A stretch of 64,000 nt of DNA from contig CAJONZ010000095.1 of NCBI GenBank assembly GCA_905236065.1, positions 1-64,000 of the forward strand. Reading direction: 5' to 3'. This DNA is from an uncultured Bacteroidaceae bacterium. GTDB taxonomy: Bacteria; Bacteroidota; Bacteroidia; Bacteroidales; Bacteroidaceae. The notes under the pieces were generated by a model. That model made no database searches, was not told the origin of the DNA, and saw only the letters and a program-made list of their open reading frames with translations. Positions 30,026 through 54,728 of the stretch are shown here, one piece after another (positions within the stretch are counted from its first letter, which is position 1; each line of letters begins with the position of its first letter). A program made the position numbers and the translations under genes.

Positions 30026-30103
30026 ACGCAGAACTCTATCGGAGATGACGCAGAACTCTACAAAAGATGACGCAGAACTCTTTTCGTTTGTAGAGTTCTG
30101 CGT
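30026..30103 (+). repeat. 78-bp four-unit element, copy 2 (degenerate fifth unit to 30125)
   Basis: ACGCAGAACTCT x3 at 22-bp spacing then AGAGTTCTGCGT; downstream GCTGTTCAGCGT at the next 22-bp step. Confidence 0.92.
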
Positions 30104-46482: not shown

Positions 46483-47985
46483 TCAGGATTTTTTTACCTG
46501 AAGCCCCAGTTTTTTCGCTTCTTCTATTAATAACGCATGGGCAGGCGCGTACTCGTTGGGTATTTTTCCGTCCAAAATGGCGTCTTTGATGGCCGCCTTC
46601 AGGATGCCCACCTGGCGGCACGGATTCAGGCCGAACAGGGCCATGATGTCCTCGCCGCTCACGGGCGGCTGGAAGTTTCGGATGCGGTCTTTCTCCTCAA
46701 TCTCAACCAGTTTTTCCCTCACCAACTCAAAGTTCTGCTTGAACCGACGCCGTTTCTCCGCATTCTTCGAGGTGACGTCTGCCGTGCAGAGCAACATCAG
46801 GTCGTCGATGTCGTCACCGGCCTCAAACAGCAGTCGCCGCACCGCACTGTCGGTCACCTCCTCGTCGGCAATCACGATGGGGCGCATGTGCAATTCTACC
46901 AGCTTTTGCACGTATTTCATCTTCTCGTTCATCGGCAGCTTCATCCGTCGGAAGATGTTGGGAATCAGCTTTGCACCGATGTTGTTGTGGTTGTGGAACG
47001 TCCAGCCCGCCAAGTTGTCCCAGCGCTTCGACTTCGGCTTGCCAATGTCATGCAGCAGGGCTGCCCAGCGCAGCCACAGGCCGCCGTCCTCCTGTCCCAT
47101 GCCTTCGGTCTTCTGCCCCTCTTCCTTCGCCTGATACCGTTGCATCTTTGCCACATTGTCAAGCACTTCCAGCGTGTGGTAGAAATTGTCCTTGTGCGCC
47201 TTTCCGTTCCGCGTCTCTACGCCTTGCAAGGCTGTCAGCTCTGGGAAAATCAGCGCCAGCAGACCACACCGCTCCAGGTCGATGAACCCCTTCGACGGGG
47301 CGGGGGAGAGGATAATCTTGTTCAGTTCGTCGGCAATGCGCTCCGCGCTCACAATCTTGATGCGCTCCTTGTTGCGTTCCAGCGCCTCAAACGTCTCATC
47401 CTCAATGTAGAAGTTCAGCTGTGTAGCAAACCGTATGCAGCGCATCATGCGCAACGGGTCATCGCTGAACGTCACGTCTGGGTCCAGTGGCGTGGCGATG
47501 ATGCCGTCCTCCAAGTCGTACAGCCCATTGAACGGATCGACCAGTTCCCCGAACCGTTCGCGGTTCAGGCACAGTGCCATGGCGTTGATGGTGAAATCCC
47601 TGCGGTTCTGGTCCTCTTCCAGGGTGCCGTCCTCCGTGATGGGCTTCCGTGAATTGTGGTCGTAGCTCTCCCTTCGGGCACCCACGAACTCCACCTCCAT
47701 CTGCTTGTATTTCAGTTGAGCCGTGCCGAAATTGCGGTAGATGGCAATGTTCGCCTTGCCCAACCGCTGCTTCAGTGCCTCGGCAATGACGATGCCTGGT
47801 CGCTCGATGCCCTTCCCCACAACCACCACGTCAATATCCTTCGACGGGCGTTCCAGGAACAGGTCGCGCACCCATCCGCCAATCACATAGCACTCCAGCC
47901 CCAGCTCATCCGCCGTCTCACCAATCAATTTGAAAATCGGATGCTCCAAAGCTTTCAGTATATCCTCTTCTGTCAAATGTCTCAT
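46483..47985 (-). CDS. cca: tRNA nucleotidyltransferase / poly(A) polymerase family with HD domain
   Basis: CYVIGGWVRDLFLERPSKDIDVVVVGKG...RRDFTINAMALCLN...LLHDIGKPKSKRW. Confidence 0.92.
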   Translation of the reverse strand: MRHLTEEDILKALEHPIFKLIGETADELGLECYVIGGWVRDLFLERPSKDIDVVVVGKGIERPGIVIAEALKQRLGKANIAIYRNFGTAQLKYKQMEVEFVGARRESYDHNSRKPITEDGTLEEDQNRRDFTINAMALCLNRERFGELVDPFNGLYDLEDGIIATPLDPDVTFSDDPLRMMRCIRFATQLNFYIEDETFEALERNKERIKIVSAERIADELNKIILSPAPSKGFIDLERCGLLALIFPELTALQGVETRNGKAHKDNFYHTLEVLDNVAKMQRYQAKEEGQKTEGMGQEDGGLWLRWAALLHDIGKPKSKRWDNLAGWTFHNHNNIGAKLIPNIFRRMKLPMNEKMKYVQKLVELHMRPIVIADEEVTDSAVRRLLFEAGDDIDDLMLLCTADVTSKNAEKRRRFKQNFELVREKLVEIEEKDRIRNFQPPVSGEDIMALFGLNPCRQVGILKAAIKDAILDGKIPNEYAPAHALLIEEAKKLGLQVKKS

Positions 47986-48121
47986 GTCTGTCTTTTCATT
48001 CTTTTCCGTGCAAAGGTAACACAAAATCATGAGAAATCCCCCTTAAAACCTTTAACTTTTCATCTACGACGTTCATTTTTCCCTTTTCCCTTTTCGATTA
48101 CCCCTTTTCCTTTGTTTTTTC

Positions 48122-48199
48122 ACGCAGAACTCTATCCGAGACAACGCAGAACTCTATTCGATTTCACGCAGTACTCTACTGACGAAAAGAGTTAAGCGT
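48122..48199 (+). repeat. 78-bp four-unit element, copy 3
   Basis: ACGCAGAACTCT, ACGCAGAACTCT, ACGCAGTACTCT at 22-bp spacing, then inverted AGAGTTAAGCGT. Confidence 0.9.
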
Positions 48200-48248: not shown

Positions 48249-48604
48249 CTACGGAGCCAAGGACCCAAAGGAATTCTCGTTTGGGGGCTTCATGAATCAT
48301 GGGCCTCGGAGAGGCCGCACTATGAGTAACCCATGGTAAGGCGCGAGCCTCACCGTGGGTGTGCGGATAGGTCGCAACTGTCTGGCACTTCGACAGATGT
48401 GCCACACGCCGAGGCGTAGATTGAGGCCATGGCGGGCATCTACCATCCATGATGGTGTGGCACATCTGCCGAAGTGCCCTGTCCCTCCCTCTGCATACAC
48501 TTACCCACGGTGAGTCAGCCTGACAGCAGCCTTACCGTGGGTTATTCATAGTGCGACCTCTGTTGAGGTCATGCAGGGTCTCCTTTTCCTCCCGTTCTCC
48601 TTAG
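48249..48604. repeat. Large nested palindromic element
   Basis: Arms 48317-48341/48530-48554 (23/25), 48349-48360/48503-48514 (12/12), 48384-48407/48455-48478 (23/24), with local hairpins 48302-48316 and 48555-48570. Confidence 0.9.
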
Positions 48605-48872
48605 AAATCAGAAAATATTTGCATTTTTTTTCAGAAATTTTTGGAGGCTTCGGGAATAAGTTGTAAATTTGCGAATTAAAAATATTGTGAACGTAACTAT
48701 TCAGCATTAATTGCAAGTAGGCTGCTTCTATAATGATAGGATGGTTGCAATGGCGTTAAGCTACGACGGGTTGTTCAGGCTCAGGCCGTGTCAGCTAAGG
48801 AGTGTATGATGACGATATATCTATGTAACAGACATATTTTTTATTTTTTTACTAATCAAATATTTTAATTTT

Positions 48873-51800
48873 ATGTTCAAAAAAACAAAACATTTAATGG
48901 CGTTCTTTGCACTCGTTATGTGTGGAGGAACGATTAACGCTGCTGATGAGGATTACACAGGTCGCATCACAAATGCGAACTTGGCTTCAACAGAGGGTTG
49001 GACGCTTTCGGCAACAGGAGGTAATTGGAGCTCTATTCAAGGTTCTGCTCCTTCTTTTTGTATTGAGACTTATGCAGGATGGGGTAGTCTTGATTTGACT
49101 GTCTATTCTATGAAACAGAACGTTACATTGCCTTCTGGTAAGTATCGTGCTGAAGGTTATGCATTCTATCGTTATGGCCTGAATCACGACACTGATCCTA
49201 CAAAATCCTATGCAAAGTTTGTTGCTGGTGATTTTAGCGCTCCTGTGGTGACACTTGGAGGCGAAACGCTTGACGCAACTCTTACTGCCTATCCTAACAC
49301 TATGGGTGAGGCTTCTACGGCTTTCACAAACGGATATTATAAGAGTCAGGTTGAGTTTGCCATTGAGTCAGAAAGCACCATTGAATTCGGATACGAGGGA
49401 ACTCATGTCCTGAAGCAGTCTTGGTTCATTGCCGGACCTATCAAACTCTATCGTACTGGTGACTTCGATTACTCGCTTTACCAGGCTCAATTAGAGGGGC
49501 TGGTAAGCGATGCCAAAGCACTTCAGGGAGGGATTATGAATGGTGATGTTTCGTCTGCCCTTGATGACGTTGTCACTAAGTACGATGGAAAATCTTGCAA
49601 CAGTGTAGCAAACTACAATGCTGCATACACCGAATTGAATTCGGCTATTTCTAATGCCAGTTCCAGTATTGCCACCTATGCAGAGGCAAAGGTAATTCTT
49701 GATGCGGCTAATGCTTATGATTCATATGGTCAGGCCAGTTATGCTGGCAATGAGACTATCTCTGCCATCCAGTCTGCCTATGACGCAAGAAGCCTGACGG
49801 AAGTGACAGCCACTCAGAAGACTGCTGCAACCGCTGCACTCGCTACTGCATGTAAGGCCCAGAAACAGCCTGCTGATGGTTGCGACATGACTCCCTATAT
49901 CACTAACTCTGACTTTGATAGTGGAAATTATGACGGATGGACACGGGTAATACCTTACGGTGGCAACTGCGCTATTCAAGGTGGCTCACGCATGGAGTAT
50001 TGGGCAGGTAATGCTACTGATCGTGCTGCAGCTTCTTTCAATATTTATCAGGAACTGAACAATCTTCCGGCAGGTGCTTACACTGTTAGTGCAGATATGT
50101 ATAATTCTCTTAATGGCGAAGGTGGAGATTATACTGTTTTCTCACCCACTTGCGGTGTCTATGGCTCTTCCAGCAATGAGGAAGTGGCATTGGTAACCGA
50201 AGAAGGCACTACGCTGAAGACCTATACAACGGATGAGGTTCTTGTATTCCGTGGCAAGATGACTATCGGTACAAAGAACCCTGTTACTCCAATAGCAGCA
50301 CGTTGGTTCCTCTTTGACAATGTAAAACTGACATACGTTCGTCAGCTTACACCAGAAGAAATAGCTGCTAATATAGTTCCGGAAAGCATCAGCCTTGACC
50401 AGGAATCTGTCAACCTGAAAATTTATGGAACAGTTACACTTAATCCAACGATTCTTCCTGAGGATGCAAATGATAAGAGTGTGACATGGACTTCAAGCAA
50501 TGAGGCTGTTGCAACGGTTTCCAATGTCGGCGTTGTTAATGCTGTAGGTGTCGGCAGTGCAACTATTACAGCTACTGCTAATGGTGCTGACGGTGTAACT
50601 GCTACGGCGACAATTACCGTTACTGATGTGGATGCTGTAGCTGCACCTGCTTTCTATAGCGAAATTGCTGCTGGTGATTTCTATATTGTAAATGCTGCAA
50701 CAGGCAAATACCTCGGTGGTGCCAATGACTGGGGTACACATGCTTCAATGATTGAGCATGGTATTCCTTTCACTGTAGCTCTGAGTAACGGCAAATACAC
50801 GCTTGACTCGCATACATATAATAGTGGGACCGCTCACTTCTTGAATGGTGCGTATATTGATGGTGGAAGTGTAGAGCTTTACGTGACTCCTGTTGCTGAT
50901 GGCAAATATACTATTTCTACAGGCTCAACAAGTGGTTACTACTCAGCATACGAGAATTCTACTTATGTGGATATTCAGTCTGTTAACCCCAATAGTGTAC
51001 TTGCACAGTGGTACTTTGTTTCAAAGGCTGACCGCGACAAGTTGCTTGTTGACGCAACTGCTGAGAATCATGTAGATGCCACCTATTATATTAAGGAGGC
51101 AAACTTCAGCCGCAACTGGGGCACGACGGGCCAGAATGTCAGTGCTTGGACTGGTGATCATCAGAAGGGTGGTGACAATACCAACATGAACTCTATGGTT
51201 CAGAACGCCGCAGCCGATGTATATCAGATTATTGAGAACATTCCTAACGGTATATATACTGCAAAGGTGCAGGCCGTCACATCTGGTACTGCAAAGTTCT
51301 ATGCCAATGAGGTTGAAGCAGATATCGAAAGCAAGGACGACGTCACCAGCCAGCAGATTGCCTCTAACGCCTTTGGCGCAGGTTTCTTCACTACAACACT
51401 CCAAGTGACCGTGACCGACTGCACCCTGAAGATTGGCGTGAAGAGCGACGATACCGACAAGGTGCTCTACTTTGACAATTTTGAACTTTACATGACCGAA
51501 TACTTCGATGCATCTGCAACAATGGTAATCTCTGATGCAAAATGGGCTACATTCTGTGCTCCATTTGACGTGGTTATTCCTAAGGAAGAGGGCGTAGAAG
51601 CTTATACGATTGATCGTATAGAAGAAAATGGCTACACACTGCATAGGGAGGAAGTTGAGAATACTATTCCTGCAAATACTCCTGTTGTTTTGTATAGTGA
51701 AACTCCTGTAAACAAACCTGTTGCTGGTAAGAAGGTTGCTTATGTCGACCTTGTAGAAGGCTTACTGACAGGTGTTTATGCTGACACTCCCGCAAAGGTT

Positions 51801-52103
51801 GGTACACATGTTCTTCAGCATCGGACGGATTTGAATGGTGCCGTGGGTTTCTACGAAGTTAAGACCGAGGGTGTAACCACTGTTCCTGCTTACCGTGCAT
51901 ATCTCACTGTTCCTGCTGGTGCTAAGGCTCGTGCCTTCTTCTTCGACGGTGATGCTACCGCAATCGAAGCCGTATCAACTATCGCAGCTGATGAGATTGA
52001 GGCAATCTACACGACTGCTGGCGCACAGGTAGAGAGCCTGCAGAAGGGTTTGAACATCGTCGTACTGAAGAATGGCCAGACTCAGAAGGTATTCGTAAAG
52101 TAA
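48873..52103 (+). CDS. Large secreted/surface protein with Ig-like (BIG2-type) domain and short C-terminal sorting-like motif
   Basis: Signal peptide; ESISLDQESVNLKIYGTVTLNPTILPEDANDKSVTWTSSNEAVATVSNVGVVNAVGVGSATITATA; C-terminus EAIYTTAGAQVESLQKGLNIVVLKNGQTQKVFVK. Confidence 0.8.
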   Translation: MFKKTKHLMAFFALVMCGGTINAADEDYTGRITNANLASTEGWTLSATGGNWSSIQGSAPSFCIETYAGWGSLDLTVYSMKQNVTLPSGKYRAEGYAFYRYGLNHDTDPTKSYAKFVAGDFSAPVVTLGGETLDATLTAYPNTMGEASTAFTNGYYKSQVEFAIESESTIEFGYEGTHVLKQSWFIAGPIKLYRTGDFDYSLYQAQLEGLVSDAKALQGGIMNGDVSSALDDVVTKYDGKSCNSVANYNAAYTELNSAISNASSSIATYAEAKVILDAANAYDSYGQASYAGNETISAIQSAYDARSLTEVTATQKTAATAALATACKAQKQPADGCDMTPYITNSDFDSGNYDGWTRVIPYGGNCAIQGGSRMEYWAGNATDRAAASFNIYQELNNLPAGAYTVSADMYNSLNGEGGDYTVFSPTCGVYGSSSNEEVALVTEEGTTLKTYTTDEVLVFRGKMTIGTKNPVTPIAARWFLFDNVKLTYVRQLTPEEIAANIVPESISLDQESVNLKIYGTVTLNPTILPEDANDKSVTWTSSNEAVATVSNVGVVNAVGVGSATITATANGADGVTATATITVTDVDAVAAPAFYSEIAAGDFYIVNAATGKYLGGANDWGTHASMIEHGIPFTVALSNGKYTLDSHTYNSGTAHFLNGAYIDGGSVELYVTPVADGKYTISTGSTSGYYSAYENSTYVDIQSVNPNSVLAQWYFVSKADRDKLLVDATAENHVDATYYIKEANFSRNWGTTGQNVSAWTGDHQKGGDNTNMNSMVQNAAADVYQIIENIPNGIYTAKVQAVTSGTAKFYANEVEADIESKDDVTSQQIASNAFGAGFFTTTLQVTVTDCTLKIGVKSDDTDKVLYFDNFELYMTEYFDASATMVISDAKWATFCAPFDVVIPKEEGVEAYTIDRIEENGYTLHREEVENTIPANTPVVLYSETPVNKPVAGKKVAYVDLVEGLLTGVYADTPAKVGTHVLQHRTDLNGAVGFYEVKTEGVTTVPAYRAYLTVPAGAKARAFFFDGDATAIEAVSTIAADEIEAIYTTAGAQVESLQKGLNIVVLKNGQTQKVFVK

Positions 52104-52428: not shown

Positions 52429-52501
52429 CTACGGAGCCAAGGAGCCGGAGGAGTAGCGCCTTCGGCACTAAGGAGACTCCTTTTCCTCCTTGGCTCCGTA
52501 G
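52429..52501. repeat. Hairpin element A
   Basis: CTACGGAGCCAAGGAG (52429-52444) and CTCCTTGGCTCCGTAG (52486-52501), perfect 16-bp arms. Confidence 0.9.
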
Positions 52502-53649: not shown

Positions 53650-53858
53650 TTATTATCGAGGGTCCATTTTATGGGCCTAAATCTGTGTGTGGATAGCGCA
53701 TTCTATTAGCCGGAATGGCAGTCCGTGAATCATGGGTTACAAAACCATCGGGGTGGATGCAAGCGCTCCGGTGGCACAAATCACTGCGACAAGCGTCGGG
53801 TGCTCGGTGAAAGAGAAGCCGAGATTTTACAAACTATTATTACACATTATTAAATTAA
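53650..53858 (+). promoter_or_regulatory. Candidate structured leader of rplM-rpsI
   Basis: ~200-nt 5' region with several hairpins, e.g. GGTCCAT-TTT-ATGGGCC and CTCGG-11-CCGAG (53803-53823). Confidence 0.45.
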
Positions 53859-54326
53859 ATGAACACATTAAGTTTCAAGACTGACTACGTCAACACCGAG
53901 GCTGCGAACAAGCAGTGGGTTGTTGTGGATGCAGAGGGACAGACCCTGGGTCGCCTCGCGTCTAAGGTCGCAAAGGTACTTCGTGGTAAGTACAAGCCAT
54001 GTTTTACTCCAAACATGGACTGCGGTGACAATGTTATCATTATCAATGCCGACAAGATCGTTGTATCAGGTGCAAAGGAGGCTCAGAAACTTTACATCTC
54101 TTTCTCCGGCTACGCTGGTGGCCAGAAGAGGGTTCCTTACGCAGAGATGATTAAGCGTAAGAATGGTTATGAGAAGGTTCTCCGTCACGCTGTGAAGGGT
54201 ATGCTACCAAAGGGTATTCTTGGCAGACATCTTTCCGACCCCAAACACCTCAAGATTTATGAGGGTGCGGAGCATCAGCAGGAGGCTCAGAAGCCTGTTT
54301 CACTTGATATTAACCTTTTAAAATAA
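53859..54326 (+). CDS. rplM: 50S ribosomal protein L13
   Basis: WVVVDAEGQTLGRLASKVAKVLRGKYKPCFTPNMDCGDNVIIINADKI. Confidence 0.98.
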   Translation: MNTLSFKTDYVNTEAANKQWVVVDAEGQTLGRLASKVAKVLRGKYKPCFTPNMDCGDNVIIINADKIVVSGAKEAQKLYISFSGYAGGQKRVPYAEMIKRKNGYEKVLRHAVKGMLPKGILGRHLSDPKHLKIYEGAEHQQEAQKPVSLDINLLK

Positions 54327-54338
54327 GCAATAAGGTAT

Positions 54339-54728
54339 ATGGCAGAAATGATTAATGCACTCGGTCGTCGTAAGGCCGCAGTTGCCCGCGTTTACCTTAC
54401 AGAAGGTAGTGGCAAGATTACAATCAACAAGCGCGATCTCGTAGAATATTTCCCCTCAGAACTCATCCAGTTTGTCGTAAAGCAGCCGCTCAATCTTCTT
54501 GGCGTGGCTGATAAGTATGACATCAAGGTGAATGTATATGGTGGTGGCTACACTGGTCAGAGCCAGGCCCTGCGCCTTGCTATTGCCCGTGCGCTCGTGA
54601 AGATTAACGCTGAAGACAAGAAGGCACTTCGTGCTGAAGGCTTCATCACTCGCGATGCACGTGTTGTTGAACGTAAGAAGCCAGGTCGTCCAAAGGCACG
54701 CCGTCGCTTCCAGTTCTCTAAACGATAA
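54339..54728 (+). CDS. rpsI: 30S ribosomal protein S9
   Basis: ALGRRKAAVARVYLTEGSGKITINKRDL...KKPGRPKARRRFQFSKR. Confidence 0.98.
   Translation: MAEMINALGRRKAAVARVYLTEGSGKITINKRDLVEYFPSELIQFVVKQPLNLLGVADKYDIKVNVYGGGYTGQSQALRLAIARALVKINAEDKKALRAEGFITRDARVVERKKPGRPKARRRFQFSKR

Follow-up and report, generated by a model that had tools for sequence, protein, structure and literature searches.

An intergenic palindrome in the genome of an uncultured Bacteroidaceae bacterium, contained in the 64,000-nucleotide stretch analysed here (the window), is most probably a non-autonomous, REPIN-like mobile repeat of single-stranded DNA (ssDNA), i.e. a gene-less pair of inverted REP-like units belonging to a 'REPtron' of Y1 transposase subclass 1.2. 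The element is built of two inverted multi-hairpin units, it is dispersed in its genome, and the same unit is found in the flanks of subclass-1.2 Y1 transposase genes. It also appears reasonably likely that subclass 1.2 constitutes a widespread REPtron class, present in at least eight phyla, with a code of its own (two hairpins and a linker whose ATGARTARCC core keeps a fixed distance of 15-16 nt to the first loop), and that its mobile two-unit repeats include the window element.

The element is a palindrome built of palindromes

An earlier note on this DNA had described a single symmetric array of about 350 bp (48249-48604). Symmetric palindromes are indeed present; however, the element proper covers only about 48302-48570 and the outer arms belong to another repeat family. 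These 269 bp form a near-perfect palindrome built of palindromes and, as the note had claimed, hold no credible ORF. The nested long-range arms which it had reported were recovered by an inverted-repeat search as an outer pair (48310-48342/48529-48561; 33 nt, 91%), a middle pair (48349-48360/48503-48514; 12 nt, 100%) and an inner pair (48384-48407/48455-48478; 24 nt, 96%). Local palindromes within the arms were likewise found (GGCCTCGGAGAGGCC, ACCCATGG..CCGTGGGT, ACCCACGGTGAG..CTTACCGTGGGT, GACCTCTGTTGAGGTC and GGCAC..GTGCC). Local and long-range pairings had correctly been called mutually exclusive, because the element consists of two inverted copies of a multi-hairpin unit. In each half-unit hairpin H1 is followed by a 12-nt linker (...ATGARTA), hairpin H2, a spacer and hairpin H3 (Table 1). 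Both halves carry the modal linker (GCACTATGAGTAACC and GCACTATGAATAACC) with an H1 loop-to-core distance of 16; the marker sequence of the window family is GGCACTTCGRYAGATGTGCC. On the window, the covariance model scored 105 bits at 48301-48407 (+) and 117 bits at 48455-48571 (-). When one stem mismatch was allowed, three units were detected in the 64-kb window, two of which are the halves of the element while the third fits poorly; shuffled windows contained 0-4.

Folded as RNA, the + strand of the element reached -188.7 kcal/mol (z -10.8) and the - strand a z of -10.7; with DNA parameters z was -11.3. In each case none of 100 shuffles was as low. The Rfam 15 covariance models gave no match to the element at the gathering threshold and at E 5. 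An integron attC site, a CRISPR-associated RNA, a terminator and a coding ORF were considered for the element and rejected, as was a ribosomal leader. An ordinary L13-Bacteroidia ribosomal leader (Rfam RF03127, 41.3 bits) is located elsewhere in the window, at 53661-53731, upstream of two small ORFs (53859-54728).

Table 1. Features of the window element and its immediate surroundings.
Feature	Position	Strand	Sequence, basis or remark
Left arm, surrounding CTACGGAG palindrome (separate repeat family)	48249-48272	none	starts CTACGGAGCCAAGGA
Whole element	48302-48570	none	two inverted half-units around a 47-nt centre; inverted repeats, covariance model, copies elsewhere
H1, left half-unit	48302-48316	+	GGCCTC-GGA-GAGGCC
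Left linker	48317-48328	+	GCACTATGAGTA; consensus ATGARTA ahead of ACC; linker table
H2, left half-unit	48329-48360	+	ACCCATGGTAAGG..CCTCACCGTGGGT; one G-T wobble, one A-C mismatch
H3, left half-unit	48384-48403	+	GGCACTTCGACAGATGTGCC; almost unchanged across copies and two species
Centre	48408-48454	none	small variable hairpins, GCC-GA-GGC; ACCATC-CAT-GATGGT type; by inspection
H3, right half-unit	48459-48478	-	inverted repeats, half-unit alignment
H2, right half-unit	48503-48542	-	ACCCACGGTGAG..CTTACCGTGGGT when read on +
Right linker	48543-48554	-	GCACTATGAATA on - strand
H1, right half-unit	48555-48570	-	GACCTC-TGTT-GAGGTC
Right arm, surrounding CTACGGAG palindrome	48580-48604	none	ends CTCCTTTTCCTCCCGTTCTCCTTAG
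Predicted promoter of 1076-aa gene	48640-48671	+	TTTG-N-TAAATTTG; outside element; consensus match only

Genomic setting of the window copy

The element is located between two divergent genes, one for a poly(A) polymerase/CCA-type enzyme at left (46483-48030, -) and one for a 1076-aa Big_2-domain protein at right (48873-52103, +). The gene start at 48873 confirmed the previously noted distance of about 270 bp to the large gene. For the left neighbour a Bacteroidetes-type promoter (TTTG...TAnnTTTG) was matched at 48018 on the - strand. Because the predicted promoter of each neighbour lies beyond the element, the element is outside both predicted transcripts.

The outer palindrome CTACGGAG...CTCCTTAG is a member of a different intergenic family that is more numerous than the element. 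It is present without the element at 52429-52501 of the window, and similar arms were found at L011, L012 and L021. Since the outer palindrome occurs alone elsewhere, it appears to be older than the element, which seems to have been inserted in its loop. Members of this palindrome family, also recorded as CTACGGAGCCAAGGAG...CTCCTTGGCTCCGTAG, measure 65-96 bp and are present in the window at 48249-48604 (outer arms) and 52429-52501 and at L010-L012 and L021.

The window also contains intergenic arrays of ACGCAGWACTCT at an exact 22-bp spacing, in which a few units are followed by units on the opposite strand (760-837, 30026-30103, 48122-48187 and 62210-62243). Genome-wide, about 360 matches were counted with one mismatch allowed (174 +, 186 -), compared with 6/10 for a reversed-pattern control. 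Possibly such an array is a set of protein-binding sites. Four element copies are within about 100 bp of an array. A related species, G014, has a 22-bp array of its own, CACAGTTCTCCC... (L265, about 1259-1400), with AGTTCT in common with the host arrays.

Copies in the host genome and the genus

A search for further genomic copies had been proposed in the earlier note, and a DNA search of the host did find them. The host assembly (G000; 2.73 Mb, 130 contigs) is 88% complete, which limits statements of absence. Besides the window copy there are two near-full copies, C99:3845-4138 and C17:917-1208, which are 88-89% identical and have unrelated surroundings. Partial copies are a short form at C120, which lacks H3, and fragments at C103, C52, C40 and C98. 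Among the host halves, left compared with left was 87-92% identical and right with right 89-92%, whereas left compared with right was only 71-73% identical. This indicated that the pair spread as one unit.

Related DNA was detected in two of 45 genomes of the genus, i.e. in the host and in G014, another species whose assembly is 84% complete, with the same limit on statements of absence. About eight related copies were found in G014, among them two-sided elements at C66 and C61 as well as several solo half-units; the centre of the C61 element is longer and unrelated. With a G014 copy as query, a DNA search of 400 genomes of the family returned the host only; G014 itself was not in the draw. 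Exact scans for the most conserved 24 nt had no match in genome_contigs (GGCACTTCGRCAGATGTGCCACAC) or viral_contigs (GGCACTTCGRYAGATGTGCCACAC). The window sequence family is therefore narrow. Alignment of 13 half-units yielded GRCCTC-NNN-GAGGYC for H1, GCAC..TGAATA for the linker and ACCCAYGG...CCRTGGGT for H2, followed by about 25 variable nt and the nearly invariant H3 region GGCACTTCGRYAGATGTGCCACAC. Unlike the DNA search, a covariance model of the half-unit reached other genera and retrieved elements of the same plan and divergent sequence in G217, G138, G124, G137, G242 and G325.

Units of the same plan flank subclass-1.2 Y1 transposase genes

In G325, G217 and G138 a PF01797 search located a Y1 gene of roughly 150 aa within arrays of same-plan palindromes, with copies on both sides. 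The proteins have DH[IV]H and Y...Q..HH in common (protein alignment). By their signature (DH[IV]H, YIxNQxEHH), their length of about 150 aa and their low copy number, the bracketed genes are predicted members of TnpA_Y1 subclass 1.2. A profile search returned the TnpA proteins of ISDra2 and IS608 as the closest solved structures.

The host has a single subclass-1.2 gene (C10:12640-12987). It is flanked by a sister family, i.e. dispersed foldback elements of about 215 bp which have the same plan (H1 GACGCTGAAGGCGTC, linker ...CGCTCCGTAACC, H2, H3 and an inverted second half) and of which many are at contig ends. A subclass-1.2 gene bracketed by the exact window family was not found, the host assembly being 88% complete. 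Because its only subclass-1.2 gene is flanked by the sister family, the window family may be an orphan. G014, G137 and G242 contain elements and had no PF01797 match, a pattern which, by analogy, would be expected of orphan REP-type repeats.

The association was examined at loci from many genomes; 79 loci were taken from named genomes as best-scoring relatives, not as a random sample, and are mostly from Bacteroidota, with Planctomycetota, Verrucomicrobiota, Spirochaetota, Pasteurellaceae and others also represented. At the 65 loci with enough flanking sequence, the density of perfect hairpins within 700 bp of the gene was 7 times that at a distance of 1.8-3.8 kb (Wilcoxon p 1.5e-11). A long exact repeat was present on both sides of the gene at 44 of 65 loci. 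The near flanks (131 kb) contained 71 units of the form H1 - linker - TA[AG]CC - H2 and the far flanks (232 kb) 11, an 11-fold enrichment over the distal flanks; the TARCC core had been picked after inspection of examples, which does not apply to the hairpin-density test. Controls gave 0 units in shuffles and 0-6 with alternative cores. Strict units were present at 43 of 86 subclass-1.2 loci in at least eight phyla, yet at none of the 19 PF01797 loci outside subclass 1.2 (p 1e-5), several of which are weak matches.

Outside the search core, 57 of 66 distinct linkers had T at position -4, and in 47 of 62 units a distance of 15 or 16 nt separated the H1 loop from the core. In the commonest orientation H2 faced the gene and H1 was on the far side (24 upstream +, 23 downstream -, versus 27 units in other orientations). 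The halves of the window element are arranged around its centre as the flanking units are around the gene; thus, the element resembles a gene locus minus the gene.

In the subclass-1.2 protein tree the presence of units was clustered but scattered (22 changes compared with a shuffled mean of 29). The scatter implies that the strict-unit label depends in part on how stringent the detection was. G000 and G325 scored 'none' under the strict rule, yet units appeared as soon as one stem mismatch was allowed. Four subclass-1.2 genes of Pasteurellaceae (L186-L189) are nested among Bacteroidales in this tree, suggesting a transfer between phyla; hairpin units are present at two of the four loci.

Alternative explanations

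The earlier note had put an RNA role beside a foldback or MITE element. Its foldback reading is right, i.e. the element is mobile DNA, although on the present evidence not an inactive MITE of the ordinary DDE type, and an RNA role is unlikely. Both strands fold very stably and some changes are compensatory, as would suit a 5' leader or structured non-coding RNA that controls the downstream surface-protein gene by alternative folds. In the aligned half-units, double changes were present at 3 of 22 pairs and 99% of the cells were paired; these changes fit ssDNA hairpins as well as RNA. An RNA is highly improbable since the element precedes the promoters predicted for its two divergent neighbours, has no Rfam match, and had a copy beside the homologous poly(A) polymerase/CCA-type enzyme gene in 0 of 19 relatives. 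Further, dispersed copies and solo halves adjoin unrelated genes, and the unit follows a Y1 transposase gene.

An ordinary MITE would derive by deletion from a DDE transposon that has long terminal inverted repeats. It would share with the element its inverted symmetry, the lack of an ORF and the occurrence in several copies; the outer inverted repeats of the sister family measure about 25 bp. We regard this origin as very unlikely because each arm itself consists of successive hairpins with a fixed linker, and this plan recurs in the flanks of Y1 genes. In addition, inspection of the flanks of the copies revealed no target-site duplications, a weak test as the ends are not sharply defined. 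E. coli REPs have roles in chromosome structure or act as insulators or terminators, and an immobile, domesticated palindrome of any origin might serve in this way between genes. The intergenic location between divergent promoters and those G014 copies which are directly downstream of genes agree with such a role; however, the patchy occurrence (2 of 45 species by DNA search), the absence at homologous loci and the fragmentation of copies render it unlikely.

Proposed mechanism and significance

For a REPIN-like repeat, a mechanism can be proposed because the biochemistry of IS608, ISDra2 and TnpA_REP provides a basis for ssDNA folding, hairpin binding and cutting. The palindrome would be exposed single-stranded at replication and its units would fold. 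A subclass-1.2 Y1 transposase would then, by analogy, bind the units via hairpins and linker and presumably cut at or near the linker. The unit has the geometry H1-...ATGARTARCC-H2, then H3 inward, with the TA core of the linker 15-16 nt from the H1 loop. The element could be excised or copied as ssDNA and inserted, without duplicating its target, at a new intergenic site, which would often be palindromic. Long-range and local folds would be two states of one DNA, the whole-element foldback and the separate hairpins. The element may be moved in trans by the subclass-1.2 protein that the genome encodes, or by a cognate protein that was lost or is unassembled.

REP/REPIN systems are a leading case of domesticated bacterial transposases. 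Here, subclass-1.2 genes often lie between copies of a conserved two-hairpin unit of defined sequence, and gene-less copies are found across the genome. The H1-linker-H2 unit is a candidate substrate for subclass-1.2 proteins, directly testable in vitro. The proposal also explains a class of intergenic palindromes of gut Bacteroidales which are located at assembly breaks and resemble RNAs.

Comparison with known systems

As in the REPIN-RAYT system, i.e. the REP doublets and TnpA_REP of Pseudomonas (Bertels and Rainey, 2011; PMC3116915), a gene-less inverted hairpin pair is dispersed in intergenic regions, and in the same genome or in related ones a single-copy Y1 transposase gene has units of the same plan on its flanks. 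In the broad sense of a REPIN or REPtron, the window element has no gene, its two hairpin units are inverted around a spacer and copies of it are dispersed; same-plan units flank a Y1 gene in relatives and across phyla. A REPIN unit has one hairpin with a 5' GTAG/GTGG foot, whereas here a unit comprises two or three hairpins and the ATGARTARCC linker. The canonical REP tag GT[AG]G, 0-2 nt 5' of a hairpin, is absent at the feet of the element, which read CATG|GGCCTC, AGTGC|GACCTC, ACACTT|ACCCACGG and GAGTA|ACCCATGG. The protein is of subclass 1.2 (Y...Q..HH) and not a RAYT of subclasses 2.x, and the window sequence family has only few copies per genome.

With IS200/IS605 (IS608, ISDra2) the system has in common the closest solved proteins and hairpin ends that are presumably processed as ssDNA. 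In contrast to these, the window element is gene-less, with no transposase gene between its ends in 269 bp; its units are doubled and inverted, and the associated transposase is low-copy rather than a multicopy IS.

Subclass 1.2 has been described as closely related to IS200/IS605, without IS properties and with 'no' REP (Quentin et al., 2018; PMC6006769). The signature of the bracketed Y1 genes, their low copy number and their mainly Bacteroidetes distribution agree with this subclass, yet here flanking palindromes and dispersed gene-less copies are present. An earlier description of such repeats for subclass 1.2 was not found in open-licence papers. For subclass 2.6 (RAYT group 5), made up of Y1 genes of Bacteroidetes, 'atypical secondary structures' that recur in the genome have been described (PMC6006769); by description, its Y motif YIH[QN]NP and longer protein set it apart from the present proteins. 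In kind, the element is already known from REP/REPIN-RAYT; its sequence code differs.
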